From: Acorus gramineus
Taxonomy: Eukaryota > Streptophyta > Magnoliopsida > Acorales > Acoraceae
Reading direction: 5' to 3'
Assembly: GCA_030737835.1 (NCBI GenBank)
Contig: CM060853.1
Coordinates: 3,015,152 to 3,079,151, forward strand
Length of the DNA: 64,000 bases
The stretch's first letter is position 1, and each line of letters starts with the position of its first letter. Positions 15,300 through 49,376 of the stretch are shown piece by piece. Under the pieces are notes generated by a model. The model did no database searches. It was not told the origin of the DNA and saw only the letters and a list, made by a program, of their open reading frames with translations. A program made the translations under genes and the position numbers.

Positions 15300-15600
15300 A
15301 CATTAAATTGATATCATCACATCCCTGACATATATCTTAAAATCTATGGAATACCATCTGTCTATTATACATATTCTAATATCTATGGAATTAATTTTTT
15401 ACCCATTTCTAGATATGAATAACATGAAATTTTCTAAGTATCATGTAAATGAAAATTTAAAAATGAGAAGACGGATAAATTCATATTAAAAAATAACTAA
15501 ACTTTAAATGAGCATCACAATATCTTTTATATATATCTAAAATCTATGGAATTCCATCGTAATAAATTTATAAAAAAATGAAAACCTACTTTAACATTAC
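15300..15600 (+). repeat. AT-rich dispersed repeat, copy 2
   Basis: It holds the same ordered phrases as 13608-13866 (TCTAGATATGAATAACATGA, then ATCTATGGAATTCCATCGTA). It runs directly into the first copy of the 250-bp repeat at 15585. Confidence 0.6.
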
Positions 15601-15840
15601 TGAAAGAAGGGGAAGATGGCAACATATTCTTTTTATATGAAAAGCTCATTCCAGGAAAATATAGGATAGAAAATTTTACTTAAATTGAGTAAATAGTTTA
15701 TATTTATTAATCTGTAATTATTTTCAGATATCTTAAATATGCTCATGATTAGGGGATGCTTATAAAATGAAAGGACATGGAAGATATATTTCAGTATTAG
15801 TTTAAAAAATAGTACTCTATTTTGATTATGAAAATAACAT
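15585..15840 (+). repeat. ~250-bp direct repeat, copy 1 (partner 17143-17400)
   Basis: Shared phrases in order are GAAAATATAGGATA, TTGAGTAAATAGTTTATAT, GAAAGGACATGGAAGATATA and CTCTATTTTGATTATGAAAA. The second copy lies about 1.56 kb downstream with scattered substitutions and small indels. Confidence 0.75.
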
Positions 15841-16403
15841 ATTTATAAAAAAATGTCTAATTTTTTTATTGAAATATATATCTTATTAATATGAGTATGT
15901 ATTCTTATGATTTTCTATTGATGCATATAAAATTGGGATTGAGGTTAAATAAAAAAAAACTATAAGTAACAGGACTCTTTCCAAAATATAAACGACATGA
16001 GGGACTTAATGAAAGATAAAACTTTTAAGAAAACTCCATGAGGGACCTAATAAAATAAAAAAATTTTTTTAAGGAACACCACATCTTTGACTGAATCCGC
16101 TCTGATCTCCCTCCAAGTTCACTCAATCCCCTCACTTTCAGTGACGATAGTTTAAACCGTCTCATATCGGTCTTGAAACTGTTAAGAGTGCCATCATGAA
16201 GTCCTAGCTAAACACCAAACATTGCCTTTTCAGTGTTGCTTTTAATGTAGGTATGTTGTTATTTGCTTCTAATATGACAAAAAAAAATTGTATTTTGAGT
16301 GAATTTTGGGGGAGATATGGAGTCGGATTTTGATGGGTTTTTGATTGGTTTGTTTTGATTGAAGGGTTTTATTTCTTTGAGTGTTTCCTTTTATGTGGGT
16401 TTA

Positions 16404-16497
16404 ATGGAGCCTCCGAAGGGTTTTTGGGCCACTATTTGGAGCTTCTTCTGGTTCTTGCCAATCTTCATTGATCTTCTGCCTCTAGGTATCATCAAAG
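16404..16497 (+). pseudogene. Orphan first exon of an At3g27390-like membrane protein gene
   Basis: An ATG at 16404 opens 31 codons beginning MEPPKGFWATIWSFF and ending GIIKG at a usable donor (AAAG, then GTTCAA). From memory, the plant family of uncharacterised membrane protein At3g27390 starts with this MEPPxGF...FLPxFIxLLxLGxIKG pattern, and the next exon should follow at this junction. The surrounding 16080-16500 is less AT-rich than the rest of the block and looks like a gene leader. No further exon of the family was found downstream. It is either a captured gene fragment or the remains of a decayed gene. WSFFWFLPIFIDLLPLG departs from the usual pattern (a Pro and an Asp in the membrane segment), as expected after loss of constraint. 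Confidence 0.6.
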
Positions 16498-17142
16498 GTT
16501 CAAATTTTACCTTTTTTTTTCTTTTGTAGAAATGTTTGTAATGAAATGAAAAAGTTTAATTTGAAAGAAAGACTGGGTTCAGATTTTTTAAATTATTTTA
16601 TATTTCAATTTTGTATAATTGTTTTTAGTGTAGTACATTGAGGATCTGTTCAGCCTTAAATATACAATTTTAATTTTTTTCACAATTTTATTGACAATTT
16701 GAAATTCCAAGTTCACATTTGAGGAAATTATAAATTTTTTAAATTTTGGCCATATATCTCGATATGATTAACTTAATTTTTTTTTAGGAATATGAAAATT
16801 AAAAATATAATATAAAAGATGGATAAAATCATTTTAAAAATTAAATAAACCTTAAATTGATATCATCATATTCGTTACATCTATCATAAAATCTTTCAAA
16901 TACCATTATATATATCCCTAATTTTCCAATATAAAATGGTTTTGGGCCAGCTCTGTCCCCCCTATTGGTAATGTTTTTTAAACCACCTATGTTTTAGGTG
17001 AATTTTTTTTCTTTTTTGGTAAGTGTAAAATAGTCACGATCATGCCTAAATAAGCTTTAATTTAACCTTTGTAAGACATCACACTCTTTTCCATAAAAAA
17101 AAATATTATTATTTTTGTCATGATTTCCATAAAAAATGAAAA

Positions 17143-17400
17143 CTCATTTTGAAATTACTGAAAAGAAAGGGAAGACGGCTACATATTCTTTTTTTTCATG
17201 AAAAGCTAATTCGAGGAAAATATAGGATAAAATTTTACTTAATTGAGTAAATAGTTTATATATTTATTAATCTATAATTATATTGAGATATCTTAAATAT
17301 TCTCATGATTAGTGAATGCTTATAAAGTGAAAGGACATGGAAGATATAATTCGCTATTGGTTTTAAAAAAATAGTGCTCTATTTTGATTATGAAAATATC
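17143..17400 (+). repeat. ~250-bp direct repeat, copy 2 (partner 15585-15840)
   Basis: Diverged second copy with the same ordered phrases, including GAAAGGACATGGAAGATATA. Confidence 0.75.
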
Positions 17401-18399
17401 ATAAAACAAGAATGAAATTATATTGAAAAAGATGTATGAATAAATACAAGTTCCACTCTTGTGCTACTTCCAACCAGAGTAGAGAAAATAAGAAGCATAT
17501 GTAAAGGGAAAAATAATATAATTATATGAGATTTCTTTTTTTTTTACTTTTAAGATAACAAAGGAAAAAATGCGAGAATGAGCGAAAATTTTATTAAAGA
17601 TGGGGAACTAAAGAGAAAAAAAATTGAATAGGAAAATATTGGAATTAAATTATAATGAAAAAAATTCTATGAGTAAAATCTTATTCGAATCTAAAACCTT
17701 ACATATTGGAATAAGATGATATTTGTTATTGTAATTTTGGTGATAATACTTCATTAAAGATATTTCAACCCCTAATTTTCTTTTGTTATTTGAAATAAAT
17801 CTTTAGAAAAATAGAATTAAAATATTGAATCATAGAAATTGAAAAGATGATAAATGTGAGAGTGACGCCATCTCACATATTTTATAAATTGAAACCCGCG
17901 ATCAATCAATGTCTTACTAAATATAAAAAATGATATAAATCAGAAATTTTTTTAAAATACTAATTATATATAATATACTCCATTTAGATTACAGGATAAC
18001 TCACTGTTGATCGAAGACCAAAAATATAAGAATGCACAAACCAACAAATTAAAATTCTTTCCATTTTATATGTGGGGATAAATTTGGGGGGGGGGGGGGT
18101 GAACCATAATAAGAAGATGAAAAGACTGTGATTAGTGACTATGTAAATGACATTTATTCTATCGGAATTGATAAATATTTATTCCAATTCAATTGATGTT
18201 TCTCGTGGAGGAATGATTTGCCTTGGAGATAAGGAGATATTTTATTCAATTATTTTAGAGTTTTGTAGCCAAGTATATATTTATTTTGTTGTCACTGTTG
18301 GAGAATAAACTTATCACATCTCCAACATTTATTGCATCCATTAAGTTCTTAGGATTGAAGAGTATATACTTTTTTTTTTATAAAGATATATATTTTATT

Positions 18400-19745
18400 T
18401 TATAACTCTTGAATGTGTATGAAAAATAAAGTTTGGTCCCAATAGTTTACATTTTGAATTTTGAATGTTTTAATAAATATTGTATTGGATTATTAATTTG
18501 TGGCATAATTATGATGATTTGTTAACATTTAATTTGGCATGTATAATTTACAATCACAATTTTGAAAATATATAATCAAGATAATGCTAATATTTGAGTT
18601 TTTTTATTTTATTGTGTAATTGTAGTTGAGATTAAATTCATTGTTGAGTTCACATGAAATTCATATCTCATTTTGGTTTTTTTTTTTTTTGTATGAGTAT
18701 TATTTAAATATATATATATATATATAGATATAGATAGATAGATATATATTTGCATTGGGTTGATCATATGAACTATTGATTCTTTGGAAAGTTAATAGAA
18801 TGGAGAAATCTAAGTGAAGGCGTTAATAGAGTGGAGAAATCAAAGTTAATTGAGTAAATGCTAATGAAATATGTGTGATTTAAATAGCTAATCGGTGTGA
18901 ATTGAATAGTCAACAAATGCTAAGCATTGATTGTCTGGGGAGTTAAATAATATTGTTTTTGTTTGACACATTAAAAATTTAAACATGACATTTTAAAATA
19001 AATGTTTTAACAAAGATTCCATTGAATTATTATTTTTTAAAAAATTAATAATTAAAATTGGATTTGTTGACAATTTATTGTATATATATATATATAATCA
19101 TAACATATTTTGGGTGTGCCTTTTTTTGGAATTCAATAATGAAGATTACGGTAATATTTGATACTTTTTTCATTGTATCATGTTTTTGCATATGAGATTA
19201 GATTTATCATTGAGTTCACACGAAACTGAAATCTGAATGTCCATTTTTTTGCAATAATTTTTTTTTGTTGTGTAGCAGTATTTTATATGTTTTTTTTTTT
19301 TATTGGATTGCATTGTTACTATGAATTATATATATTTTGTTTGTCGGGTTGATCTTATGGACCATTGATTATTCGAGGCATTAATAGAGTGGAGAAATCC
19401 AAATGAATAGAGAATGCTAATAAAAATTGTGTGAATTAAATAAATGCTAATAGGTGTGAATTGAATAGAGTCAACAAACGCAATCATTGATTGTTTGGGG
19501 AGTTTAATAATACTATTTTTTTTAAACATTCAAAATTTAAACTTGACATTTTTAAATAATTGTTTTAATAATTATTGCATTGAATTATTATTTTTTGGAA
19601 CACTAATCATTAAAGTTGGATTTGTTGACAATTTATTTACATATATAATCATAACGTACTTTGAAAATCTATAATGAAGATTACATTAATATTTGATACT
19701 TTTTTTTTAATTGTATCATGTCTTTGCATATGAAATGGCAATTTT
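18400..19745 (+). repeat. AT-rich tandem array, unit about 560 bp
   Basis: The words ATTGATTGTCTGGGGAGTT at 18926 and ATTGATTGTTTGGGGAGTT at 19486 are 560 bp apart. The flanking text (GTTGATC...ATTGATT, GGTGTGAATTGAATAG, GATTTGTTGACAATTTATT, AATGAAGATTACRGTAATAT) recurs in the same order. About two and a half units are visible, well diverged, with a further echo at 22975-23045. A (TA)n/(GATA)n tract lies at 18710-18748. Confidence 0.7.
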
Positions 19746-19789
19746 TTTTTAGCAAATTATATTTTGAATATTTTTTCATTTTATAAGGA

Positions 19790-20078
19790 TCCTCTTATCG
19801 TAATAATATTATGATAATCAAATTTAACTATAAGTTAATCAATATGTTAGATGACGAAATGTATGTATTAGAATAAACTATGAATGAAACTAAAATGTTG
19901 TAAATGAATTTTCATGGGATTAAATAGAAATGTAGGAGTATCCTAATAATATTATGATAATCAAATTTAATTATAATTTAATAAATATGTTACATGATGA
20001 AATGTATGTATTATAATATACTATAAATGAGATTAAAATGATGTAAAGAATTTTCATGGAATTGAATAAAAATGTAGG
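19790..20078 (+). repeat. Tandem duplication, period about 143 bp
   Basis: TAATAATATTATGATAATCA at 19801 recurs at 19944, followed each time by GATGAAATGTATGTATTA-type sequence and by GAATTTTCATGGRATT. Related text also occurs near 14600-14800. Confidence 0.75.
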
Positions 20079-20390
20079 GGTAAAATAAAAAAATGGTTGT
20101 GATTAAAATAGTGTGAATGGACTGTAATGAGATTAAAACCCATTGTTAATGTATAGTGGTTTAATAAATAAAAATGTATAAAGTTGCTCAGAATAATATT
20201 TTCATCTACATTTTTTTTTGCTCTCTGAAAACATCTAGCGTCACCATAAGTTTTTCTACAAAACTTTAATTTGCTGATAAAAAATCTAAAATCAATAAAA
20301 CTATCAAGAGACATAGTATATTTATATTTGTGTGGAAGCCTACCCTCAAAAGTTTTTTTAGATAGACCTTTAAGAAGAAGTTTAGTTTAC

Positions 20391-20643
20391 CGTTGCGTGT
20401 AATATCACTTCTTTACCATTTAATATTCGTCTGACATCCATAGCCTAAAGAACAGAAAATTAAAATTAAAAGTAATTTCCATGAAACCCAAGAAACACAT
20501 TTAAATGTTAAAAAAAATTGTTTAAATAAAATACAAAATCACAAAAGTTTAATCGAGGGTGTTCACAAGCAAATCACCTTTGTCCAATGTGAATTATTTT
20601 GAAGCCTCTCATCAGCCAATTTCACATCATGCTCCTTTACTCT
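20391..20643 (-). pseudogene. Two orphan exon-like pieces of an unrecognised gene
   Basis: On the minus strand, 20578-20643 is preceded by TTTTTAG and followed by GTGATT, and reads 22 codons in phase 0 (RVKEHDVKLADERLQ...). The next piece, 20391-20444, is preceded by TTCTTTAG and followed by GTAAAC, and reads 18 more codons in phase 0 (AMDVRRILNGKEVILHAT). The joined frame stays open. Residue content looks like real protein rather than AT noise. I do not recognise the family, and no convincing exons extend it in either direction. It could be a captured fragment or a decayed gene. Confidence 0.35.
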
Positions 20644-21389
20644 CTAAAAACAAATAACTATTTTGAACTATGAAAGAATCAGCCATGAAAATGGTCTTAT
20701 GTATGATATATCCCAAAGATTACATATTACAAAAAATATGTAAGACTATGAAAAATCGGGATAGCAATTGTCTTCCGATTCCTCCAAAAAAATATAATAT
20801 TTGATTAGCATTTACTCTATTCACATTTAATTAGCATTTACTCTATTCACTTGGATACGTCTCAAGAAAGAATGATTCTAATTGCCCTTCTGTATTTTTT
20901 TTTATTCATCATATACATCTATAGAATCCTATTCATATTTTAAATAGATTGAAATCCAATCCTATTCTAATTTTAACTCTTACATATTGGATATTAAAAA
21001 ATGATAACTGTAATATTGTCCTATTATAAATTTAACACTTACATATTGGATTCTTAAAATATGATAAATGTAATATCATGGTAATATAATTAAAATAAAT
21101 TATATTCAAGATATTTTAATGCTGCATAAAGATGTTCATACATTAAAATAAATTTATATAAATACATGCATATGATTATTTTATATATATATGCCAACTT
21201 TAATGAGCTATTTTTTCAATCTTATAATGAAGCACGGATATCATAATATTATCATGATAAGGGAGGGTTATAAAATCAAATCAAATGAATATAAATATTT
21301 AACATAAAAGTATTTTTGAATTATGCAAATGAAAATAAGAAATATTGATAATATGGATGAAATCATTATAAGAGTTTTAAAAATTTAAA

Positions 21390-21780
21390 TAGATATCATC
21401 ACATCACTTACACATATCCTAAAATCCCTAAAATCTACAGAATTAATTATTTGGTGATTTTTAGATATGAATAACATGAAAGTTTCTATGTACCATGCAA
21501 AAGGGAAAACAAATGAAGATGTAAATTCATATTGAAAATTAACTAAATTTTAAATAGATATCATTGTATTTCTATACAGATCCTAAAATATATAGAATTC
21601 AATCATAATAAAAAAAAAATTTAAAAATCAAATTTTCTATATACCATGCAAACGAAAAAAAAAACTGAAGATGAATAAATTCATATTGAAAATTACCTAA
21701 ACTTTAAATAGATATCATCGTATCTTTTATATAGATCCTAAAATCTATAGAATTCAATCATAATAAAGTCAAAAGATTTT
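21390..21780 (+). repeat. AT-rich dispersed repeat, copy 3
   Basis: It matches 13608-13866 and 15300-15600 (TTAGATATGAATAACATGAA, then the AAATAGATATCATYGTAT phrase). Its own second half is repeated once more at 21640-21770. Confidence 0.65.
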
Positions 21781-24056
21781 TTTTTTTTAAGATTACGAGA
21801 TAAAAAATTGTGAAGACGGCAAAACATCCTGTATCATGAAGAGCTAAAATTGAGGAAAAAAATTTTGATAGGAAAATTCATTTATCAAAAGATCCAAAGA
21901 TCTATGTCTCATCATCACATGAACCCCAAATCTGCAACAAAAAAAAGGGCCTATATGAAAAAACAACTAATCCCATCCCTAGAATCAATCATTTATATAT
22001 TTAAGATCGTGATATAGGCCACCTGAAGATGTGTTAAGCTCAAACAAAAGCTCAAACATATTGTTTACTGTTGAAAATAATAAAAGGAATGACATTATAG
22101 AAAAGAAAACAAAATAAAGGGGAATGAACAGGTTATTGTCCCCAACTTTTTCATAAGTGTACTTGATCATTCATTCATACCAAATTTAACAGAACCCATC
22201 TCGGAAATGAAACCATTCACTCATTCATGCAAATTGACAAATACGAAAATTGGGATTTTGAAATGAACAAATCACAAAATTTTATATTCTAAATAAATGA
22301 CAAAAAAAAAAATTAAACAACTGAGTAATCAATCAAACAAACTAAAAAACATACCCGTATCAGAAAAAAAGATGAACACTACCTCCACATTCCAAAATTT
22401 TGAGAGAGAGAAGAAAAAAGAGAGAGATGATAGATCCATTTATCCAAATGAATGGGGATGACAATGAATGGGTATTCAATGTTGCATAAATAAATTTGAG
22501 GGTTTGTGGAAGATGAGGGGATTGAATGGAGAGGGGATGAATGATGAGGAGATTGAATGATAGATCCATTTTTTCCGCTCCTGTTTTTTGAAACGTCTGT
22601 GTGCATTTCTTTTGTGGTGTTTATAATAGATGTGTGCGAAAGTATTAAAATACAACTTGTTTTTGGAACATTCTTGATGTTTAATATCTTGTGTCAATTT
22701 TATTTCTGCTGTTTGATTTATGAGTTCGTTTGGTAAAAGCCAATTCAACCAACAGTGATGATGCACTTGCATTGTAGTACATTCACATTATCATAACAAT
22801 GATATTCAAATATGATTATAATAAAATAATAAACATATTAATACAATTTTAGTCCGCATATTAATGTAATTTAATCATAATTGATGTAAAGAAATTTTTT
22901 CATGAGTAAAAATTTTATTAATGTAATTTTATTAATCATTTTAAAAAAATTATTAATGTAATTATAAAAAAATTTGTTGGGTAGATCTTATTGACTATTG
23001 ATTATTTGGGGTATTGATAGAGTAGAGAAATCCAAGTAAATAGTAAGGGAATAAATTGAATAAATTCAATTGAAGAGCATTACATGATCAATACATCCAT
23101 ATCAATATATGTAACCTACAAGTAACCTCCGCTATACATGAAATTTATAGTGGATTAATATATTAATTACAGACTTTTATATATTAATTACAAATTTTGA
23201 ATGCAAACATGAATAATTTTTTGGGATTGTTCTTTTTTTTACCATTTCAAATTTAAGCAATACATTTGAATTTAATGCCAATATAATCAACGAATATCAA
23301 GGGACACAATCTCGTCTCCTTAGTCTTCAGATTTTCTTCAAATCTTGTCATTTAATAATATTGTCATTCAAATCTTGTCTTTAATAAAATTGCTGTTAAT
23401 TATATTGTCTTTAATAATTTGGATAGTATTCAGAATAAAATCAAATTAACATTCAAATTAAAGATAAAATTTAAATAGATTTCATATTTTTATTGATAAA
23501 CTGATATGCAAATTATATGAAAACTTTAAATGGATTTCATTATATCTTTTATATATATCCTAATTTAAACAAATATGAAAGTAATGGGAACATTAAATAT
23601 TAATTAAAAAATTTATATATTAATTATCATTTTTAAATGCGAATATTAATATATTTTGTTGTTGCAGTCATTCTTTTAATATTAAAGTCATATTTCATTT
23701 AACCATTTAATTAGAAGGTTTTTCTCATTTGATTATCAATATTATCTAAACCACAAAAAAAATTAATTTTAATTTTCCTTATCAAAATAGGGTACAAAAT
23801 ATATTCTAAAAGTGAATTATATTTTGAATATTTTTTTTTTATAAGCATCCTCTTATCTTAATAATAGTATAATATCTGAATTTAATTATAAGTTAATAAA
23901 TATATTAATATAATTTCAGTTAATATATATGAAAAATCTAAATACATATAATTTATGTAAATTATTAAAATGATTTTATTATATACATATATATATGTGT
24001 GTGTGTGTAAAAGATATGATAAAATATATTGGAATAAATGATGACATGATTAATGA

Positions 24057-24237
24057 ATTTTTTGGATTGCATATTAACTACCTGACTGACCAATAATATC
24101 TTCCAAAGAAGGGAAGGTATACATTAGTCCATTAATGTCCAACCTTGCCATGAATGAATTTGTTGGGTAGTTTTGGCATTAGAGGAGTCCAAGGTTATAT
24201 CATGGTAGAATTCAACTGACCTCTTTTAGAACATTAG
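24057..24237 (+). repeat. 181-bp direct repeat, right copy
   Basis: It matches 9729-9909 at 179 of 181 positions. It closes the AT-rich block; mixed-composition DNA resumes at 24238. Confidence 0.95.
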
Positions 24238-24518
24238 ATGGGAGATCTCTTAGCCCCTTTTGTATGGATAGGCTCCTATGGCTAAAGAAAAGGTTATTTT
24301 TTTCATTAGCATAAACCATGATACTTATGTAATGATAAGTTAGTATAAGTCTTGATAATTATTCTAGGGTGGCTGGAATATTAGCATGAACCATGAGAAT
24401 AACAAAAGAAACAAAGAAATTGATTATTTTGCATAGATTGATATCTATCTTGGTATAGCTATCAGGGTTAAGCAGTTCCATGACAATTAACAATTCTCAA
24501 ATGAAGGGCGAAAATCCA

Positions 24519-25519: not shown

Positions 25520-26118
25520 AAATCAAGGGATTTTTAGATTTAAGTCCCCACAAATCATCATATTTAGTGATCGATTCCTCTCTTCTTCGTATTTAAGTTT
25601 TAGTCATCAGATTTAAATGATAGTTCCTTTTTAGTTCCTGAGAAGGACCTATTCATAAATTATTTAATTTACTTTTCAGTTCCTATGAGGGACCTATCCA
25701 TGAATTATCCTTTAAATCAGGGGACTAAAACCTAAATACGAAGAAGGGAGGGATCGATCACTAAATATGATGGTTTGTGGGGACTTAAAACTAAAAATCC
25801 CTAAATCAATTAGTCAATCACATATCAAAATGAGACAAACCAATATAATAATAACACTAATTTCTCATATATATTTAACAGTTGGACATAACTCCCACTG
25901 TTGGGGGTAGTGTTTGTGGACAGTTGGGGTCCAACTCAATTATGAAGCACAACTCACATCCAGGTCAAAAGGACTCACAGAATCCCTGTTTGCATGCATG
26001 GCCAGTAGATAAAACAAGACCACAGTTAATATTATTTCTTTTATATTTTTCATCAAATAGTTAGATGTAATTTCTCATGAAAATATATACATATTCCATT
26101 CAAACATATTTCATTAGA
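25520..26118. other. Intergenic between two foldback elements
   Basis: 25540-25800 contains an inverted repeat (TTTAAGTCCCCACAAATCAT near 25545 against ATGGTTTGTGGGGACTTAAA near 25770), possibly another small foldback element. A less AT-rich patch at 25882-26064 has a 60-codon open frame with no recognisable motif. Confidence 0.4.
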
Positions 26119-26127
26119 TAAAATTTA

Positions 26128-27039
26128 GGGTTAAAGACATCTAAGTCCCTACAAACATAGAAAAAACCATATAAGTCCCTACCCTGAAAACTCAGAAAAA
26201 CTCAATTATCATCCCTGAGTTAAATTTTCATCCAAACTTAACGGAATATTCTCATAATATTCTGTCACATATAATTGTGTTGACATTAAAGTCCTTATAA
26301 ACAGTCATAAAGACAAATTAGTCCCTGCAAAAGATAAAATTGTTCTAAAGACTTTTACATTAAATTGTGTACACATTGTAGTCCCTATAAACAATCATAA
26401 AGACAAATTAGTCATTGTAAAAGACAAAATTGCCCCTCAAAGATTTTTACATTTAATTGGATAGACATTACAGTCCTTATAAATAATCGTAAAGACAACA
26501 AAAATGCTCCTGAAGAATTTTTACATTTAATTGTGTAGAAATTGCAGTCTTTTAGAGGATATTTAATTTTTAAATTGCAATGTATGCACAATTAAATGTC
26601 AAAATTCTTCAAGGGTATTTTTGTCTTTTAGAGGGACCAATTTGTCTTTATGATTATTTATAAGGACTGTAATGTCTATTCAATTACATGTAAAAGTATT
26701 TCAAGGGCAATTTTGTCTTTTGCGGGGACTAATTTGTCTTTATGATTATTTATAGGGACTATAATATATACACAATTTAATGTAAAAGTCTTTTAGATGC
26801 AATTTTTTCTTTTGCAGGGACTAATTTGTCTTTATGACTGTTTATAAGGACTTCAATGTCTACACAATTATATGTGATAGAATATTCTAGGAATATTTCG
26901 TTAAATTTGGATGGAAATTTAACTTAGGGATGATAATTGGGTTTTTCTGAGTATTCAGGGACTCGTACGTCTGTCCCAATTTTAGTAGGGACTTATATGG
27001 GTTTTTCCATGTTTGTAGGGACTTAGATGTCTTTAACCC
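26128..27039. mobile_element. Mutator-type foldback MITE, third family
   Basis: The ends GGGTTAAAGACATCTAAGTC and GACTTAGATGTCTTTAACCC are perfect inverted repeats, and the arms pair almost to the centre. A perfect 9-bp duplication TAAAATTTA flanks it (26119-26127 and 27040-27048). Each arm carries internal repeats of a phrase like AGACAAATTAGTCCCTGCAA. Confidence 0.92.
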
Positions 27040-27295
27040 TAAAATTTAATATTTGTTTCAAATAAATCAAAACATGCACGGACTGATTTAAAAGAGTGTT
27101 GATCTTATGATGACAAAATTTAATCAAATTAATGATCATCAAGGTTTGGATCATTTTTTTTTTCATGTTCGTATTTTGTTTAATTTTCATTGTTCACATC
27201 ACCATGATTAAACATTTCACACCGATCTTGTTATCTATTTGATTGGTTGCCTACTAATGTTTCAGTCACGGAATTGTTCTAATTTTCTATATAGA

Positions 27296-27542: not shown

Positions 27543-28024
27543 GGGAAAAATCCATAAAACCCCCTGTAAATTTATTGAAATTCATATGACCCCTTGAATT
27601 TTCTTGAAATCCAAATAACCTCATGAAAACATCTAATAAATCCAAATAACTTTCTGAATAAAATTTCTACTGATGGATGATGAATATTTTGTGAATATTC
27701 TATTTTGTAATCTTATACGAAAACAAAGTATACCAAAAAAATCTTATAATGTGTTAAAAATACATAAAATAATATGTAAATGATGATTTTACCCATCCAA
27801 ATAGGATTTTATAAAATTTCATAGAATATTTCACATTTTTAAAATATTGTAGAGGCTTTTAGTATATTGTATTTTCAGTCATGATTAATCAAACAGAATA
27901 TTCACAAAATATTTATCATTCGTCAATAAAAATTTTATTCAGAGGATTATTTGAATTTACTATCTATTTTAGGGGCATACAAGATTTCTGTCAGTCTACC
28001 GGGGGGTTATTTAGATTTTTTTCT
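27543..28024. mobile_element. Mutator-type foldback MITE, same family as 11172-12106
   Basis: It starts GGGAAAAATCCATAAAACCC. The right end is diverged (GATTTTTTTCTT) but is fixed by a perfect 9-bp duplication TTTATTAAA (27534-27542 and 28025-28033). The arms pair through the central TATTTTGTGAATATTC / GAATATTCACAAAATA words. Confidence 0.85.
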
Positions 28025-30980: not shown

Positions 30981-33900
30981 ATGGCAAACCTTCTCCTTCA
31001 AAGCCTAAGAAGAATCGGAGCTTCTTCTTCTTCACTTCTCCCCAAGTTTTCTTCTCCAATCTCTGCTTCTTTCAGGTAAAACTCGAAAACCCATCATCAG
31101 ATCCTCATCTTTAACAAGACCCATCATTTGTTTCCGTCTCTCCCCCTCCACAGGTCGGTTTTACTCCTCCCTCCGTCCATTCCTTCCAATGTACAGGAGA
31201 CCGAGCCGTCATGGAGGGTAATAAAGATTCGATCTTTTTGTGTTTTTCGTCCTCTGAAGGTGGTTGTATTGTTTGGGTCACTTTTATTGAATGTTGAGGA
31301 TTGTTAGTCTGTTCAATTTTTATTTTTGTTGTATGTTATTTGATCAGAAATATAAGTATCTGTATTTATTTGGAATAATTTTCTTGTCTTAGTTCTCAAG
31401 CATGTGATGTTTAAATGTTATTTTCGAGATTCTATTTTGCATTCCTGTTGTTTGATCATATGGTTATGAGGAGATTTGGTTTTTAATGTTTCAAAAATCT
31501 GTATCTTGCCTTTTCTCTTCTCTAGCAAATTAAATGAGTCTTTGCAATGCTATATCTCGTCAGTTGATTGAAAGATATTTGTTGAACCAAAGGCCGAGAC
31601 ATCAGCAGCAATGCAGAAGTAACGAAGAATGAAATATGAAGAGATACATGATATAGTTCTGACTGTTCTGACTTTGTTTTTGGTGTGTTTGGTTTGGCTT
31701 TACATAGTGCAAAGAAATGGACTTGAGAGTCTGAGTGGGAGAGATGGAGGGTTGGTCTTGTCCCTCTGTCATTTTCTACACGTGAATGGCCTTTTTTTTT
31801 TTTTTTTGTTATCCAGTTTTCACTCATTTTGTTGGATGGTTTTTGTTTATTTTCTCTTTAAAGTCGTCCCCTTATCATTGACTCCTTATCCTTGCATTTC
31901 ATTTCATTTGTGAGAAGAATTTTTTTTAAAATGTTTTAGAGGATATTCATATTCTTATCCTTGCATTTCATTTGTTTTTTATATTCAATTAATCTGATTT
32001 TCCTTTATTGAGAACCTTTTCTTCATGGAGTATACTTTGAAATGCATTTGGATGCCTTCTTATATATTCTTCATCTTTTTGTTATGGTTATTATGGATGT
32101 TGGGATGCTACTGCATTTGAAACCTTTGTTTTTTGGAAAAAGCAAAAGCTTTGCTTTTCGAGGAAAAAACTAAAGCTTTGTTGTGTTCTTTGGTACCATC
32201 CTTTTCCTTTTAAATCTTTTCTATGAACTGAATTCTCATTGTGAGGTAGTTTGTTTGATGTTGTCTGCAGGTTTTTGAGAGAAAACCTCGATGGTCATGT
32301 ATCATCCAACCGCAAAGCTTTTGTTCTGTTGGGCAACGTCGGATTTCTGTGAGTCCACAACTGCGAGCCTTTTCCTGTAAAGCGGGGAAGCCTGTTGAGA
32401 ATCCAAGTGAGGGGGGAGGCTCTGATAGTGGTGGTGAATTTAAACCAAAAAGGCAAAAGCTGAAAGGAAAAAAGGCGGTAATGAAATGGCTGAAGCTTTT
32501 CAGGTATAACAAGAAAAAGGAGTATGAGAGAATGACAGCCGAGGAGAAGCTTTTGTTTAAATTAATGAAGGTATTCTCCTAATGTACTTTGCTTCTTAGT
32601 TTACAAGGGAAAAGGAAAAGAATGAAATCTTTATGAGGTTGACAATCAATTTTATCAAGTCTCAACTAAATTACGCAAATGATACATAATACCGAAAAAT
32701 ATTGATGAATTTTGACAAAATTTAATTAGATAACACCAGTCACAAATCATTCCGAACTTTTCCGAATGTGCAAAAAAATACTTTGATTGAATACCTCCTT
32801 TACCTATCAGTTGAGCATAATTTCTGTGAACTATCTAGTACATTCAGAAGCTGGATATCCATTTAGTTTGGATGATTTATCACATTTTTTATAAGTAAAA
32901 AAGCTAATCCTTATTGTCACTGATACCCTTCACACTTGACATAAATTTTTTTGCTTGCATTTTTCATACTAATGAAAAAAATACATTTAGAAAATAGCCT
33001 ATGATTTCCTTACTTTTACTGTACTTATCCTATATAATCTATGAATGTCCATATACCTGCCGAATATCTTCCATACACGAACATTGAGACTGGATAACAC
33101 AGATTTAATATCACAAGAGCTCTATTTTGAGGTGCCATATTCCACGAGTTATGGATTATAAATGTGATATTGCTTGTTCATTTTTTGTTGCAATTTGATT
33201 TCTCACTCTGGGTGGGGTGTCAGGCACGGAGGAAAGAGGAGCGGCTTACCGATGCATTGATGAAAATTGAACCTAAAGACTTGACTGAAACAGTCCATGA
33301 CCCTGAAGTATTGACACCAGAGGAGCATTTCTATTACCTCAAGATGGGCCACAAGAGCAAGAACTATGTTCCCATTGGAAGGCGAGGTGTCTATCAAGGG
33401 GTGATACTTAACATGCATTTGCACTGGAAAAAGCATCAGACATTGAAGGTAATCGTGAAAACATTCACACCTCAGGAGGTCAGGGAGATTGCTTCAGAGT
33501 TGGCACGATTAAGTGGAGGTATTGTTCTTGATATCCATGAAGAGAACACTATCATTATGTACAGAGGGAAAAACTATTCGCAGCCCCCAACAGAGATAAT
33601 GTCTCCGAGGATTACCCTCCCAAGGAAGAAGGTATCAATTTACATCATATATGGTAGCTGTTATGTAAGACAACATGAAATGTCAACCTAAATAAAAAAT
33701 AGAGAGAGAGAGAGAGGAAAGGAAAGAAAAAGAAAAGAACCATATTCTATATTTAATGGCACCCTGTGCATTCATTTTAGGTTTTATGAATTGGAGATGA
33801 TGCTGATGTTCGGATCCTCTAAATTTTTCCTTTCTCCTAAACATTCATGAATTTTGTTTGAATTTGAGCATTGTAATTTGGCAATTTTGTTGTTGTTTGT

Positions 33901-34740
33901 GTTGTTTTTTTTCTTCTTTTTTTGGGATTCATCTGATCCAAATCTCTATACTGTTGAAACTGCTTATGATGTTTTCTTCTAAGACGAGAAATTAGGTTTT
34001 TGAATTATTACGTGGCATTTCGAGTGAGGTGTTACTTAGAATTTCAAAGTGAAAAATCTATCGCACTTAATTTTTAAGTCCATTCAAAATGCTGATCGAA
34101 TTCTTTTCCATGTAGTTGAACTGGTTCTTGACATTCATTTGAGGAAACACTGAAGCTTATTATGTCTAATTTGGGCTGAAACTTTATTTATTCATATTGT
34201 TTTTTCTAGGCTCTGGATAAATCCAAGCACAGGGATGGTCTCAGAGCCGTCCGATTATACATTCTGAAGCTGGAGGAGGATCTTGAACTACTGCAAGCTA
34301 AGGCCAAGAGAGAAAGGGAAAGCAAGTCCAACTGCACAAATGAAGAAAACCCATCTAAAACCATTGATGATGGAGGTATGAACAGGAATTTTGAAGGGTT
34401 CGGAACCACTTCACCTGAAGAGGAAAAATTTTTGGAAGAGGATTCAATGTCGGAGTCAGGCCTCATTTCTGAATCTGAGGATCTGTCTGATATATTTGAA
34501 ATGGATTCTGAAGCAGAAAGTGGGGAGGAATCGCAAAAACCTCTTTATTTAGACACATTTGAGAAGTTCCCCTCTCAGGGTGACGCAGACTTGGAGGACT
34601 TTGAGGAGCTTCTCCGTCAGAACTCCACCAAGTCCAAGAAACGTGACTCACATGGAGAAGCTGAAGAGCTGCCGGAGCTTGATGAAATTGACCGGATATT
34701 CCTTAATGTAGGCTCACTTGTAAATAAGAAGAGGAGATGA
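30981..34740 (+). CDS. CRM-domain RNA-binding protein 1 (At3g25440-like, subfamily 4)
   Basis: Five exons join in frame with GT-AG introns: 30981-31075, 31154-31217, 32271-32570, 33224-33631 and 34210-34740, giving 465 residues. The N-terminus (MANLLLQSLRRIGAS...) is Arg/Ser-rich and lacks acids, so an organelle transit peptide is likely. A Lys-rich segment follows in exon 3. The single CRM (CRS1/YhbY) domain spans about residues 183-272 in exon 4, with the GRRG loop at 205-208 and the ARLSGG and MYRGKNY motifs. The C-terminal exon has a short coiled-coil (LYILKLEEDLELLQAKAKRE) and a long acidic region, and ends NVGSLVNKKRR. CRM proteins bind RNA; in plants many act in group II intron splicing or ribosome assembly in chloroplasts and mitochondria. 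The exact target is not visible. It is a tandem paralogue of the gene at 39837. Exon 2 has only 64 nt and is assigned because phase and splice sites fit and the other gene matches. Confidence 0.85.
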
Positions 34741-35377
34741 TAGTTTCACTGAGACATCAGAGTTTAAGCTATTAACGGGTCATTTAGCTTCGCATAGAAA
34801 ACAGTTCATCTGCTTAGTAGATTTCTTCAGCTCAATCCTAGTTTGGATTGGGATGGCGGGTCAGATTGATCAAATTGAAAATATTGGTATACAAAGCTTG
34901 GCAAAAGACATTTATCGAATTTAAAAGAATAAGAAGAAATGGTTTGATCCACTTATTTCTCGAACTGAGAGATCCATGAACCGGGATGCTAATGCATATA
35001 GATACAAATGGTCCAGCGGGAGCAAGAATTTCCAGGCATTCATATCATCCATGCGTAAATTTTGATCTAAGATTTGCATTCTTCCATGTTCAAGGAGTAG
35101 CATACTGTTCCATGGAACTGAACTTCGTTTTTGAATGGCACATTTGATTTTAGGGTCACCATCTTCATTTTACCCTGTCATGAAGTTATTCAGGCATTTT
35201 TAAATTCCTTCCCCAATTGAAAAGTTTCTGGAAGAGTAATCGTTGTTGCACTTCCATTACTGATTTTCATCAGAGCTGCTCAGATTTTTATATGATCTTT
35301 CCCATAATCGTTGTTGTGAGCTTCGTGATGGTCTCCAGATGGTAACAATAGGCCACTGATGTGGAATATTAGGATGT
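34741..35377. other. 3' flank of CRM gene 1 and intergenic DNA
   Basis: Probable 3' untranslated region followed by unremarkable sequence up to the JmjC pseudogene. From about 35255 there may be earlier, unalignable parts of that pseudogene. Confidence 0.35.
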
Positions 35378-36968
35378 TTGGAGAGAGTATTTTCACACTG
35401 CAGCACCTCTGCTCTAGTCGCTTCGAGTGGCCATTGCATGTTATTCAAAAAATGGAAAGCTGACAGTGATACAAGTATTCCTTGTCCTTCTACTTTTTTG
35501 GTGGAAGGGTTGAGTTTCCTCTTGGAAGTAAATTCTGCCTCTGAAAAAGGTTGGCTGTCGAAGTTAAACAGAAAGGCAGAAGCAATGTTTGGTGGATATA
35601 AATCTGATAATGCTCGATTTTTATTCCTGGCCCTGTTTAATTTAGGTGGCCAAATCAATATTGCCAATGTAAAGCTAATGAAGGCAGCTTGTAAAGAGGA
35701 TACAGACGATAATAACTTGTATCTCCCAGGTGCAAGAGATCTTCGTCATGTGAGTTTGGAGTGCTTCCAAAGCATTGGGGTTAACGACATCGAGTGAGTC
35801 ATGTTTTTTTTCGTAATATTGTTAATGCCAAATGTATAGTTTGAAATTTCTGTTACACTTAACATGCTTTATGCTATGCCTATGATTTGCATTCTCGCAA
35901 TCATATTTTGTTCTTGTCACCATGCTGTCGTTTTTTCCTACTTAGTTTCATGTTGGGTACCATGTTTGGAAACTTATGTTAGGGGAAAAAATAATATAAA
36001 AAATTATTTGTGCTAGGTACACATCTCTTACCAATTTTTGTGTGATGTTTAGAACAGCTTTTCTTTAATGTAGCCTACTAGGCTGATATGAAATTGGTCT
36101 GGCAGTCAAATGAACTCTGCTCATCCCTGATAATCTTTTCGAGCAGTTTGATGTTTTGAGGACAAGAAAACCCTTTTATTAATGGAATGTGGTGAGTGTG
36201 ACCCACTTTTTTGTCAAAAGGAAAAAAATATCCCTCTTGAAATATTTGTCGGGCAGTATTTTTTTTTTTCATGAACAATAGTTTAATTCTATCAGATACA
36301 ATATTAATCTGAGATTGCGTATGGGGAATTCATGGCTGGTTTAATGCCATCATTGCTTTGTGTTCTTGGTATTCATGTCCTTTTTTTATGAATTGGTAGG
36401 TCAATATCAATATTCACGAGCTCTTCAGGGGAATATGGAGGGCCTTTGAGTGGTCAGATGCTCAAATTGAAGGATTGGCTTCCATTCAACAACTTTGAAG
36501 AGCACATACCATGTCATGGTACTGAATTTGTCAGTTACAGATCATCATTTTGCCCCCCTTAATCTTGATGCAAGTTCTGTCCAAGGCCAGATCTGGGGCC
36601 AAAAGCATATATTTCTTCTAGGCTTATCGAAGAGCTGGACATACGAGATTCTATTACCAATTCACTATGATATGACAGTAATAGAATCCCGTATGTCCAA
36701 CTCTTTGATAAGCCTATAAGAAATATATGCTTTTGACCTGGCCTTTGACAGAACTTACATCAAAATTAAAGGGGCCAAAACGAGGATCTGTAAGCACTGA
36801 CGAATTCAGCACTGTGTCATGGTGCTTACATATCATCGTTTTGGCCCCCTTAATCTCGATGTAAGTTCTGTCCAAGGCCAGATCTGGGGCCAAAACCATA
36901 TATTTCTTCTAGGCTTATCGAAGAGCTGGACATACAAGATTCTATTACCAATTCATTGTGATATGTCA
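35378..36968 (+). pseudogene. JmjC histone demethylase pseudogene (KDM3/JMJ25/IBM1-like)
   Basis: A 140-codon open frame at 35378-35797 holds diverged but ordered motifs of plant KDM3-type demethylases: ADSDTSIPCP, a WLSKLNRKAE segment, then KLMKAACKEDTDDN and LYLPGARDLRH. These precede the JmjC domain in the family. At 36402-36533 a second piece reads VNINIHELFRG and then, after a one-base frameshift, MLKLKDWLPFNNFEEHIP and HGTEFVS. The following exon keeps PDLGPKAYIS and an iron-ligand HxD motif (HYDM in copy 1, HCDMS in copy 3), but in shifted frames. That exon is present three times with the middle copy inverted. A possible later piece lies at 37634-37780. The internal exons linking 35797 to 36402 and the second His ligand are missing. 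Intact family members demethylate H3K9; this copy cannot. Confidence 0.75.
36521..36968. repeat. JmjC exon triplication: direct, inverted, direct
   Basis: Copy 1 (+, about 36521-36678), copy 2 (-, about 36680-36825) and copy 3 (+, about 36813-36968) share the words AAGTTCTGTCCAAGGCCAGA (AAGTTCTGTCAAAGGCCAGG in copy 2), GCATATATTTCTT and GCTTATCGAAGAGCTGGACA (GCTTATCAAAGAGTTGGACA in copy 2). Copies 1 and 2 face each other with a very short spacer, as do copies 2 and 3. Transcripts could fold into a hairpin with arms of about 140 bases. Confidence 0.9.
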
Positions 36969-38588
36969 GTAAGTTGTATTTTGTCTAATTTCATCTAAAT
37001 TTAGTTTTTTTGTCAAGTGACTGATAAAATTTGGATGCTTAAGATATGTGTATATTTTCTGTTTAACTTATAGCATCTATACTTTAATTGACAATCTTTT
37101 CTTGTATGACTGGTGATTCTATGCCTTCGGTAAACACTGCCTTATGCTTTGTCTCCTAATTACTATATATTGTCAGGGAGCATCTTCTCCTTGCGAGTCA
37201 AGGCTTAATTTGCCAAATTTTCTGAACTTTTCTGTCATTTCCCACTAAAGTTTTGTCATATAAATTAAGCTATAATCTATTTATATTTGAGCTTCTTAAT
37301 GTGGAGGTTTCCATGTCCATCAATGCTTGCATCTAAAAGAGATCCATGACATCTTTTTAATGGCATGTGGTTCCCTTTTTATTTTTTATTGGATCTTGCC
37401 TTGTGTTTGAAGCACATAGAATCCAAATATTTGAAATTGCATATAAAGTCTTTTGTTTAGTTTTACATGTTGATTTGAGTGCAGTATCACTAGAACTTAC
37501 TCAAACAACCATTCAGCCTGATTTTACCATTTTGTTTGAAACACAAAATTCTTGTAGTTTGACATTTGCTTTAATTGTTTTATTTTTTCCAGGTTCTAAC
37601 AAATCCAAATATAATGCTTTCTTATCTTTGCAGACCTCAAACCGTTTAGGAGAAATTCAAGAAAGGGAAAGTAAAGTTTTGGAGAAACTTGAAGGATTTG
37701 GAGCCACTTCACCCGATTCAGTGTCACAAATTCTATCAGACATGACATGGATTAATATGTGGTCACTGGTCAGAATGTGAGGTTTGTGGTATTTCTAATT
37801 ATATGTGAGTCTGTTGTTAGGGACTGATGATGTCTAATGAAATCCAGTCTTGGATAAAAAATAGTCCCCATGTTCTTTTTTGACAAAAAAAAGTAATGAT
37901 TCGTTTGATATTCATTTTCATTCTCGTTCCAGTAAAGAAAATTAGGTTTGGAATCTTTCATTCAATATTTCAGATCAAATTTCATTCTTCTTTTGGAATA
38001 GAATCATCAAACTGGTTTTAATTTGTTCTAAGTTTATTTATTTTATTTTATAATAGTGTGTCCTTTATTAAACAAATATGTATTTTTAAAAGAATATTAT
38101 GGAGTATTGCAAAAGAGATCATTGGAATGATCGCTTCTAACATTTTTCTTACATGCATACACCCTCATAATAAATCTAATTATTTATAACTGATGTTGGG
38201 TTGACTCGGTTAGGGTCATGAAGATATCTGGAATTTAAATTTTCTTTAAATTTGATATAAATTTAAATTTGATATAAAATTATATTATCATAGATTAGTT
38301 GTCTTTATTTTACTAAACTATGAATAATTCACTATCCAAATAAGATTAACAATAAAAATGCAACCAGAAATAAAAACCTATTTTCTGCTAAAATTAAATT
38401 GTTTTTGCCTTTGTTCTCAATTCAATTCCCCGGATAGATAGTTTATACAAGCATCAAATAGTAGGATATTTTCTGTTTTTGACTTGTTAAAATATAATTA
38501 TAATTTTAAATGGATTAACAGGTTCTCAGTCTCCCCCAAGTATTATAGTTTATCTTTTTTTGAGAAATAGTAGGTAGACTATAATATT
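36969..38588. other. Intergenic, with a possible last piece of the JmjC pseudogene
   Basis: At 37634-37780, after a TCTTTGCAG acceptor, an open segment reads TSNRLGEIQERESKV and later LEGFGATSPDSVS. The first part could be the exon after the HxD motif. The last part resembles FEGFGTTSPEE in the final exon of CRM gene 1, so its origin is unclear. The rest is AT-rich with no gene. Confidence 0.35.
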
Positions 38589-39533: not shown

Positions 39534-39836
39534 ATATTTTATCTAAACTTGTAAAAACATATCTATTGTATTTTTATCCATACTAAATAAACATGTTTTT
39601 TTAGATTAAACTGATTCTCTACTTATCCCACCCTGTTATGATCCTCAAAACAAAGGGGGGCAAGTTATTAATATTAACTTATACCAATTCAGTTCTATTC
39701 CGCATTGCTCCAAACCAAATAATATTGGGGAAGAATTACTCCATTTGAAAATCTTTATAAAATTTCAATGGCATCACTACCTCCCCCAACTCATATAAAA
39801 CAATTCATTTTCAAAAAAATTTCAGTCCTCCAAAAA

Positions 39837-42800
39837 ATGGCAAACCTTCTCTTTCAAACCCTTAGAAGAATCAGAGCTTCTTCTCTATCTTCACTTCTCT
39901 CCAACTTTTCCTCCCCAATCTCCCATTCTTTCAGGTAATTATCAAAAACCCATCATCAAATCCCCATCTTTAACGCAACCCATCTCTTGTTTCACTCTCT
40001 CTCTCTCTCTCTATTCAGGTCGGTTTCACGCCTCCCTCAATCGATTCCTTCCCAATTCGAGCCACCCAATCCCTTCATCCCTTCAAAACCCAAGTGGGGT
40101 TTCAGGGATTTCAGCTACGGTTCGGTGAGTCTGGTCTTCTCCGAAGGGAAGCCGAAGTTCGAGACGAGGGAGACCGAGCCGACGAGGAAGGACAAGTGCA
40201 AGGCGAAGAGGTGGTTGAAGCTGAAGAGGAAGAGAGAGAAGCAGAAGCGGAGAGAGGCCAACAAGAGCGATCCGCGGTGGCTCGGCGTGAAGGGGAAGAA
40301 GAAGAAGAAGGAGAGGTTCGCAAATCCGGAGGAGCGGATTAAGTACAAGATCGAGAAGGTGGTCAAAATCGAATCTTTTCTTTGATCTTTGGAATGACTT
40401 GCTTGTTTTGGATGTCAGTCAATCACATTTGCATGTGTTCGTCAAATGTGGCTTGTGAGGTTCTCTAATGCGTGTTTTATGTTTGATGATATGCTTCTTA
40501 GGAGATTTGTTTTGTTATTGTGTGATGTTTACATATTGGTTTTTCTCTTCTTTTATTGGTGTATTAAATCTATATATATCATTGTCACTATATTTCAATT
40601 GAAAGATGTACAGAACTGAAGGCAATCGATATGTCAAACAAAATCAGCTAGGAAGTACGAACACTTCAATGAATATATCGTGTCTCTGTGCATTCGACAC
40701 ATATCCGACATGAGACATAACACAACATACATTGGATACATGCCAAACACGCCTCATATGTTTCCAAAATTCAGAAATAATTTTATGAATTTTGGACATG
40801 CCTTGGACATGGGTTAGTTAAACTCGACATGAACACATGACACTTATGGGGCATGACATTGTAATGTTTTGCTTAATAACTATTGTAAAATTTGTTTTCA
40901 CACTGAATCAAATGATATTAGAACCTCAATGAAGAAATAGTTGATACACCATTGTAGTTATATTAATTTTTTTTTTATAATCGTAAATTTTTGTAATACA
41001 ACATATTTATTGTTTATATATTCATTGTTGTGTTGTGTCCTAGTCTTTTAATATTTGCCGTATCTCTGTGTCTGTATCGTGTTTGTATCTATGTTCCACA
41101 GAGGAGAGGACATCAAGAATTCTTGTTGTTGACTTATCACACACACTTATAAAAGTATTCTTCTCACTGTTTCACATGATATAGTACTCATTCTTTTGGG
41201 ATCCTTTGAGTTTTGGATTATCCATATGAATTGTGTAAACAGATAGGTCTTCGGTTCAAGCCCCAGGTTACCTATAAAAATAGTAATTGTAATAATCTGT
41301 GAGACTGGTTGATTTCCAGTGAGGTCTGCATGAGCTCCATTGTTATTATTGATTTCCATAATTGACAACTTTTATCTGGATCCTATGGTTGCAGTGATTT
41401 ATTTACTTGCATAAGTTGCCATTGACTTATTTTATCAAGCTTTTACCCAATACCAACATACTTGAAGTTCATGGGGCAACTCAGATCTACATAGTATGTA
41501 CTTCAATGCAGTATATAACTGTCTTATTATTGTGTTTTCTGTTATTTTCTCTCAGTTAAGATACCATACACCACTGTTCTTGAATCTTGATAGGAATATA
41601 ATTAAAATATGAAAGGTTGAAATTTTTATCCATGCAAAATATATCTACTTGTAAACTTTTTCTTAATTTTAAAATATATGATAAATTAATCACAATCAAA
41701 CAAGATGACTAATAACCTTTGATCTAAGCTTACAATCTGTCAGACTATTCAACATATATCAAGTAAAATAATTTTGCTATGTATTTAGGCATCTTATAAA
41801 GTATTTATCTTGCAAGCTTTGATATTACATCAGAAATAATTATAGTTTTTTAATATTGGTAATATCTTTCTCTTTCAGGCAAGAATCAAGGAAGCCATGC
41901 TAGTTGAAAGACTAAAGAAATATGAGGTTTCCAAACTTCAAGGTCCAGTGGTCGAACCGGTGAACCTTACTGGCGAGGAACGCTTCTACATGAAAAAGAT
42001 GGCCCAGAAAAAATCAAATTATGTGCCAGTTGGTAGGAGAGGAGTCTTCGCGGGTGTTATTTTAAATATGCATCTGCATTGGAAGAAACACGAGACTGTC
42101 AAAGTCATATGCAAGCCTTGCAAACCTGGTCAGGTTCACGAGTACGCCGAAGATATTGCTCGACTCAGCGGCGGGACCCCAATTCAAATAATCGGGAATG
42201 ACACGATAATATTCTATCGTGGAAAGGACTATGTCCGCCCCAAAGTCATGTCGCCCATTGATACATTATCCAAGAAGAAGGTATGCTCGTTTATGATTAC
42301 TTTTTTAGGCCGAGTTTTGAACTAGTTATGTCTAAATGGGTCTTGTCTTTTTAAAGTTTAGCCATTGGTGTCGAATTTTAGTATTTATGCATTAAAATTC
42401 AATAACACAACTTTATGAAAAAGTTAGTTATAAGTAGTTTTTATGAAAAAACTATTTATGAAAATTGGTTTCAAACGGTGCCTTAGTTTTTCAAATTTAT
42501 TACTGAATATATTCTATAAAGGAACCCTGATGTTATGTTGCCCATCAATACATTATCCAAGAAGAAAGTACATATTTTTATCACTTTTTAAGGCTCCATT
42601 TTGGAACCATTGTCAAACTGATTTCACTTTTCAAAATTAGTCTTCAGAGAATCAGTTTAAACAGTTTTTCTTTTTTACTTCTATTGAGTTTTTTTTTTTT
42701 TTTTGGTAAAGAGGCTCTGTAACCAGAGCGGAATTTCTATTTTTTTTTTTAAAAAAAAAAACTTTACATCAAAATGTGAGAGTCTAGAACGTCAGACATA

Positions 42801-43352
42801 GACTCTCACGTATACTTCATACATGTGGGATTAACAAATGTCGAAGACAATTGTCCTGTAAAGATTCTGTTATGACAGTTTCCTGTGTCAAAACTTCTAT
42901 TGAGTTCTGATTTTGGTTTTCATTGCAATTGGTTTCAAATGGGCTTTAATTTATTCAAATTTGTTATTGAATTCGAGCCCAATTGCTATTTTTTTTATTT
43001 CTGACAAATCTTTTCTTGCTTCCAGGCGCTTGAAAAATCAAAGTACGAGCAATCACTTGAGACCGTGAGGCGCTTCATAGCGATAGCTGAGAAGGAATTG
43101 GAGCTCTATTACCGTCACATAGCATTATATGGCGATCCAACTACGAGGAATAGCTATCCATCCTTTACAGACAATGATGAATGTGATTCAGATGATTCTG
43201 GCGAGGAAGATCAAAAACGAGAAACGACAAAAGAAAGCATTGAATCAATTGATGATTTCCTCGCATCGGATTTATCTGAATTAGATGATGATTCTGATGG
43301 TGAACAGCTATCAAGAACTGAAATTGTTGGTGACAGTGAAGGAAGTGCATAA
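39837..43352 (+). CDS. CRM-domain RNA-binding protein 2 (subfamily 4)
   Basis: Four exons join in frame: 39837-39934, 40019-40358, 41879-42280 and 43026-43352, giving 388 residues. The N-terminus (MANLLFQTLRRIRAS) is a probable organelle transit peptide almost the same as in CRM gene 1. Exon 2 is extremely Lys/Arg-rich at its end (KGKKKKKERF). The CRM domain is in exon 3, about residues 176-265, with GRRG at 198-201, ARLSGG and FYRGKDY. The C-terminus is acidic (DDFLASDLSELDDDSDGE) and lacks the basic tail of gene 1. The role is presumably RNA binding in organelle intron splicing or ribosome assembly; the specific target is not known. Introns fall at the same places as in gene 1, except that gene 1's second intron has no equivalent here. 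Intron 2 (1.5 kb) has no clear element; intron 3 holds a small retroposon. Confidence 0.87.
42690..42892 (-). mobile_element. Small retroposon (SINE-like) in an intron of CRM gene 2
   Basis: A ~200-bp insertion has a T run at its left (a minus-strand poly(A) tail) and is flanked by a perfect 14-bp direct duplication ACTTCTATTGAGTT (42676-42689 and 42893-42906). I cannot see clear RNA polymerase III A and B boxes, so SINE identity is not proven. An internal inverted pair GTGAGAGTCT / AGACTCTCAC is present. Confidence 0.6.
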
Positions 43353-48853: not shown

Positions 48854-49376
48854 GAGAAAAATCCAATCTACTGAAATTCATATAATTTTCTTAATTTTCT
48901 CAAAATCCATATAACCCCCTGAAAACACTTAATAAATCCATATAACTCTCTGAATAAAATTTTCGTTAACAAATGATAAATATTTTATGAATATTTCATT
49001 TGGTTAGTTTTGACTAAAAACACAATATACTAAAAACCCACTAAAATGTGTTAAAAATGTAAAAAATCTTATAAAAATGATGATTTTACCATCTCTGAAT
49101 ATATTATAAAACTCTATCCGGAAGGATAATATTGTCATTTATAAAAGATTTTTCACATTTTTAACACATTGTAGGGTTTTTTTTCGTATATTATGTTTTC
49201 TATTAGGGTTAATCAAACATAATATTCATAAAATATCATAGTCTATAAACTTAAATTTTATTCAGTGAGTTATTTAAATTTATTAGGTGTTTTCAGGGGG
49301 TTATACGGATTTTAAGAAAAGTTAGGGGGTTATATGGATTTCAGTAAGTTTACAGGGGTTTATATGGATTTTTCCC
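48854..49376. mobile_element. Mutator-type foldback MITE, same family as 11172-12106
   Basis: The left end GAGAAAAATCCAATCTAC is diverged; the right end GGTTTATATGGATTTTTCCC is typical. A perfect 9-bp duplication TAGATTTTA flanks it (48845-48853 and 49377-49385). Arms pair through TGTTTTCAGGGGGTTATA / ATATAACCCCCTGAAAACA. Confidence 0.88.

Follow-up and report, generated by a model that had tools for sequence, protein, structure and literature searches.

Inverted triplication of an exon segment in a dead KDM3/JMJ25-type pseudogene, probably through replication template switching

Three copies of a pseudogene exon segment

In the window, by which we mean the whole 64,000-base stretch of DNA analysed here, an exon segment of a KDM3/JMJ25-type pseudogene, 140 to 170 bases in length, occurs three times in forward-reverse-forward order at about 36508-36972, the copies being 86-92% alike. 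Probably, this inverted triplication was produced by template switching during replication within a pseudogene that was already dead, had never been processed, and now evolves neutrally. The locus provides a clean, small inverted triplication from a plant, in which one can still read the native sequence on either side and the short inverted repeats where the copies turn.

The basic arrangement of three copies with the middle one inverted, as put forward in the original prediction, was borne out by two kinds of search. A repeat search returned one direct pair (36535-36681 and 36826-36972; 147 nt, 93%) and two inverted pairs (36597-36657 and 36678-36738, 92% complementary; 36735-36797 and 36822-36884, 89% complementary), and self-BLAST produced an inverted match across 36508-36823 with an E value of 8e-78, which rules out chance repeats. 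The exon had been described as tripled in its entirety; what is tripled is its 3′ part alone, from the ACCATG at 36508 onward, while the exon start lies near 36399. Similarly, the stretch coding for the HxD motif, which had been assigned to all copies, is present in copies 1 and 3 and missing from copy 2; the latter, a reverse complement that directly adjoins its source copy 1, ends in ...GATTCTATTAC, immediately short of the HxD-coding stretch. The estimate that the copies differ by about 10 percent can be replaced by counts. Aligned together with the paralogue from contig C4, copies 1 and 3 differ at 13 of 161 ungapped columns, copies 1 and 2 at 17 of 143, and copies 2 and 3 at 18 of 130. 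Indels come on top of these, with 7 nt missing from copy 2, 15 nt from copy 3, and 3 nt from copy 1 that another copy retains.

Table 1. Features of the triplication and of the pseudogene that contains it (window positions)
Feature	Positions	Strand	Basis or remark
Pseudogene fragment of KDM3/JMJ25 type, truncated and unprocessed, made up of exon pieces and remains of introns	35217..37154	+	tblastn/blastn against C4; frame breaks, stops, gaps
Unduplicated native 5′ portion of the exon, flanking copy 1 on the left	36399..36507	+	Alignment with seven paralogues
Copy 1, forward	36508..36681	+	Ends at the native splice-donor remnant GTAA
Quasi-palindrome ACCATG-T-CATGGT at the left edge of copy 1; proposed second switch point	36508..36520	+	
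Proposed first switch point: TTAC and GTAA on either side of the 20-nt hairpin loop, which is the HxD-coding remnant	36654..36681	+	
Copy 2, inverted	36678..36815	-	Without HxD stretch; 7 bases missing internally; approximate right end
Copy 3, forward	36816..36972	+	15-base internal deletion near start; HxD stretch retained; continues into native intron; left end approximate
Remains of the native intron, flanking copy 3 on the right	36973..37154	+	GTAAGTTGTAT... aligned with paralogues; 37091-37154 against the C5 locus, 80%

At its outer edges, the triplication passes smoothly into its surroundings. Leftward, copy 1 runs into native exon; copy 3 passes on its right through the native GTAAGTTGTAT donor into the intron, so that native sequence is continuous on both sides and a foreign insert is absent. 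None of the seven paralogue exons that we aligned carries the triplication. Palindromes are prone to error in assembly, and a misjoin at a palindrome was therefore considered as the source of the extra copies. We reject this explanation as having a negligible chance of being right, since 8-14% of ungapped columns differ between copies and the triplication is found on two contigs that differ elsewhere. The second of these, contig C114, carries the triplication with 1 mismatch in 448 and is collinear with the window, at 99% across the surrounding 10 kb and at 95-97%, with a large gap, farther out. Judged by this collinearity, C114 is probably the other haplotype of the same individual; alternatively, it may be a recent duplication.

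The assignment of the exon to the KDM3/JMJ25 type, also part of the original prediction, held up in alignment with an open paralogue: two exon pieces, 35217-35780 and about 36399-36681, correspond to exons of an open JmjC gene of the KDM3/JMJ25 type on contig C4, at 64-67 kb. Intron sequence is retained, as seen in the match of 37091-37154 to the C5 locus, and this rules out a processed pseudogene. In place of an open frame with an HxD motif, alignments with the paralogues revealed frame-breaking gaps and stops. The peptides from 35360-35797 and 36392-36562 matched no Pfam family at an E value of 1 or better, and a PDB search with the former gave a single match, at E 0.7.

Searching the genome with the C4 exon returned nine matches, namely seven open KDM3 exons (two on C10 and one each on C4, C5, C68, C1, and C2; "open" refers here to the examined exon alone) and the pseudogene places on contigs C7 and C114. 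The pseudogene copies are 70-74% alike to the four closest paralogues (C4a, C10a, C5, and C10b), 59-65% alike to C68, and 45-57% alike to C1 and C2; FastTree placed the pseudogene outside the four closest, with a split support of 0.86. The C10b paralogue has HxN in place of HxD. As a side observation, the open KDM3 paralogue exon L037 (G000:C10:11284763-11285089) encodes HCNMSDA where close relatives have HCDMSDA, that is, Asn for the iron-binding Asp; judging from this substitution, its product may be a demethylase without activity.

The lesions of the pseudogene also reveal the order of events. Two lesions are common to all three copies: 10 bases are missing after AAGTT and, upstream of that, at least 17 between GTCAG and TTACA. 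Losses of 2 and of 6 bases are in addition shared by copies 1 and 3, the two that extend further. Since the first two deletions are carried by every copy, the exon must have died prior to its tripling.

Turning points and possible routes to the triplication

Both turns of the triplication lie on or close to short inverted repeats, and the return is to a place upstream of the first switch, as one would expect of replication template switching. The first turn, from copy 1 to copy 2, lies at an exact inverted repeat, TTAC-20-GTAA, with one arm ending at 36657 and the other starting at 36678; in the copy 1/copy 2 hairpin, the HxD-coding stretch becomes the 20-nt loop. The native form of this inverted repeat is also found in copy 3, at 36945. 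Taken alone, a 4-bp repeat at this turn lends weak support. The second turn, from copy 2 to copy 3, reads GAATTCAGCAC-TGTG-TCATGGTGC, two bases off the GAATTCAGCAC-CATG-TCATGGTGC that a turn at the quasi-palindrome ACCATG-T-CATGGT predicts, and a template switch must here assume the later mutation of two bases. For comparison, 6-bp inverted repeats with a spacer of 0-3 nt start at 210 of the 64,000 window positions; within 36399-36700, the only such repeats are two overlapping registers of ACCATG-T-CATGGT.

From these features we infer the following path of the polymerase, traversed in a single event. Having reached the GTAA at the old splice donor, the growing strand would have folded back on the TTAC that lies 20 nt upstream; reverse copying over about 140 nt would then have given rise to copy 2. 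At ACCATG-T-CATGGT, it would have returned to the forward template and recopied the segment into the native intron, giving rise to copy 3, after which the three copies would have been free to drift. Note that the reversed segment, at about 140 nt, is longer than most described template switch segments. Short-range template switch mutations have been formalized in the four-point model of Loytynoja and Goldman (PMC7954356, PMC8794818), and our locus is like the mutations described there in that a neighbouring segment is copied as its reverse complement, inverted repeats lie near the switch points, and the return point is upstream of the first switch, hence a direct copy as well. According to the same descriptions, such mutations can make RNA hairpins in a single event. 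Unlike the cases described there, which concern ape genomes and RNA genes, ours lies in a plant pseudogene.

Following the tripling, the copies appear to have drifted without sign of constraint, both between copies 1 and 2 and between copies 1 and 3 (see the column counts above), and C>T and G>A together account for 10 of the 22 polarised changes, all of which would be consistent with present neutrality of the locus. The changes are unevenly distributed, with 4, 12, and 6 falling to copies 1, 2, and 3, respectively, over 130 columns polarised by majority. At 3 of the 12 copy 2 sites, it is copy 2 that has the base of the paralogue, with copies 1 and 3 sharing another, and FastTree grouped copies 1 and 3 at 0.80. 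Both the unevenness and the bases shared by copies 1 and 3 could be explained by two steps or by conversion between these copies.

The triplication might accordingly have arisen not by one double template switch but by a two-step path, in the form of tandem duplication followed by inversion or of conversion between copies 1 and 3, either of which fits the states that these copies share and copy 2 lacks; or else by origin-dependent inverted-repeat amplification (ODIRA), whose product has an identical forward-reverse-forward order and carries short inverted repeats at its two junctions (PMC10766186). Indeed, the pre-existing short inverted repeats at both junctions and the forward-reverse-forward order make our locus resemble ODIRA and DUP-TRP/INV-DUP structures as described in that source. 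The dimensions do not agree. ODIRA, as described there, operates at the kb scale and above, and the yeast amplicons contain a replication origin and have junctions at 5-6 bp repeats interrupted by 40-80 bp (PMC10766186), whereas the unit here spans about 170 bp and the junctions consist of 4 bp with a 20-nt spacer and 6 bp with a 1-nt spacer. On balance, we consider ODIRA or a two-step path unlikely and favour the double template switch.

Folding, pairing, and candidate targets of a putative hairpin RNA

The original prediction saw in this locus a proto-miRNA or siRNA hairpin able to act on KDM3 genes. With respect to structure, the foldback was confirmed: the predicted fold of either strand is one long hairpin, with minimum free energies of -221.3 and -251.8 kcal/mol compared to shuffle means of -111.3 and -119.2 kcal/mol (z -18 and -20), and 0 of 100 shuffles was as stable in each case. 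The longest uninterrupted helix in these predicted folds has 18 bp on the plus strand and 29 bp on the minus strand. Candidate targets exist too, the seven open KDM3 exons being candidates for the intact homologue whose absence would have spoken against such a role. The copies that can pair with one another, 1 and 2, are no better preserved than the direct copies 1 and 3, which cannot (17 of 143 against 13 of 161; Fisher p 0.34), a comparison of low power in which both pairs include copy 1, counts are low, and conservation of one short 21-nt site could escape notice. Within the limits of this low-power test, there is no sign that selection has kept the duplex.

For the target scan, we used one exon from each of the seven paralogues and a plant targeting score, strand-corrected, at 445 21-mer starts. 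With plus-strand RNA, the best score was 3.0, and starts with a score of 3 or below numbered 3/445 for each of C4a, C10a, and C5 and 2/445 for C10b. With minus-strand RNA, the corresponding numbers were 1/445 for C4a, 3/445 for C10a, 3/445 for C5, and 11/445 for C10b, the best score being 0.5, again for C10b. The exons of C68, C1, and C2 had no start at a score of 3 or below among the 445, on either strand. The C10b exon is paired, with a single G:U, by a 21-mer of copy 1 on minus-strand RNA; the best-scoring candidate siRNA, AATATATGCTTTTGGCCCCAG, is complementary to 36593-36613, would require minus-strand transcription, and would face CTGGGGTCAAAAGCATATATT as the matching site in the C10b KDM3 mRNA.

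Matches of this quality are partly expected, being much what the homology of a coding exon would give. When mismatch columns were shuffled, a best 21-column stretch as good as the real one was seen in 29 to 406 of 2000 shuffles across 15 copy-paralogue pairs, a control that for copy 1 takes in the single-copy flank. The matches are clumped beyond random columns, in line with expectation for a coding exon. In addition, inspection of the alignment by eye placed a one-mismatch stretch against the four closest paralogues in the single-copy flank, outside the hairpin. Since coding-exon homology yields such matches, we regard the one to C10b as a lead rather than as evidence of function.

How, then, might the locus act as a proto-MIRNA or hairpin-siRNA gene? 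A read-through transcript would fold copy 1 on copy 2, DCL would cut siRNAs from the duplex, and the KDM3 paralogues, chiefly C10b, would be hit. The strong folds and long helices on both strands, the presence of seven open exons, and the 11 low-scoring minus-strand starts against C10b all speak for this scenario, as does precedent: the birth of MIRNA genes from inverted duplications is treated in PMC1790633 and PMC3237417, and the former reports evidence for a recent origin of 16 Arabidopsis MIRNA loci from protein-coding genes by this route. Like the young loci MIR163, MIR161, and MIR824 as described in PMC1790633, ours is a gene-derived inverted repeat with homology along the arms; unlike them, it has a third, direct copy and a dead source that is 70-74% like the nearest open paralogues. 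Against the scenario stand the pairing that is preserved no better than between copies 1 and 3 (with the low power mentioned), the few low-scoring starts for C4a, C10a, and C5 on both strands and for C10b on plus-strand RNA, the lack of any for C68, C1, and C2, the great age of the locus in comparison with the haplotype divergence, and the tripling of the exon after the death of the gene. Moreover, the 64,000 bases of the window contain 0 Rfam matches at the gathering threshold, which rules out a known RNA family. We therefore judge a proto-MIRNA or hairpin-siRNA locus to be highly improbable. More improbable still is a hairpin made in one step by template switching whose siRNAs would silence or methylate the living KDM3 paralogue C10b; if true, a histone-demethylase family would be under the control of its own mutational scar.

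Most likely, the triplication is a neutral mutational scar. Drift and loss are perhaps the commonest fate of inverted-duplication loci, as suggested in PMC1790633. More generally, replication slips in pseudogenes can yield gene-derived hairpins, the raw material from which MIRNA genes are born under the inverted-duplication model. A 2023 PNAS paper reportedly also deals with template switching and new miRNAs.

Age and surroundings of the triplication

Comparison of the two putative haplotypes showed 1 difference in 465 positions of the triplication, 7 in 1291 of the pseudogene to its left, and 5 in 628 to its right. Because the copies differ by 8-14% and the haplotypes by far less, the triplication must long predate the separation of the two haplotypes. 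In the FastTree tree, the terminal branches of the copies measure 0.04-0.07. Plant neutral rates lie at 1.5e-9 to 7e-9 per site per year, and with these rates the branches would translate into some 6 to 50 million years, a rough estimate.

Hairpin-forming DNA is common in the window, given that at least five further palindromes, 277-934 bases long, are present (11173-12106, 25526-25802, 26119-27048, 27626-27970, and 48869-49346). According to self-BLAST, these five are imperfect, with 71-81% self-complementarity, and some share sequence with one another and with other contigs; by these properties, they are probably fold-back or MITE-like repeats. What distinguishes the triplication among the palindromes of the window is that it is made of exon.

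The KDM3 pseudogene sits between two tandem CRM-domain (CRS1_YhbY) genes with similar first exons, at about 31000-34740 and 39730-43352 (limits by eye). Five window peptides were searched against Pfam, including two CRM pieces, which matched their family at 1.2e-17 and 4.3e-21. To the right of the pseudogene, an open piece at 37636-37780 (QTSNRLGEIQERESKVLEKLEGFG...) follows an AG splice-like site; its sub-threshold Pfam match to Phage_Mu_Gp48 (E 0.027) was taken as chance, and a DNA search with 37560-37830 gave, at E 0.001 or better, no match beyond the stretch itself and C114. Finally, about 14.1 kb of the window (9912-24053) are missing at the corresponding place on contig C114. A direct repeat of 188 bp (9725-9912 and 24053-24240; 97.9% identity) marks the two ends of this segment, which looks like a haplotype-specific insertion or, alternatively, a deletion between the repeats.
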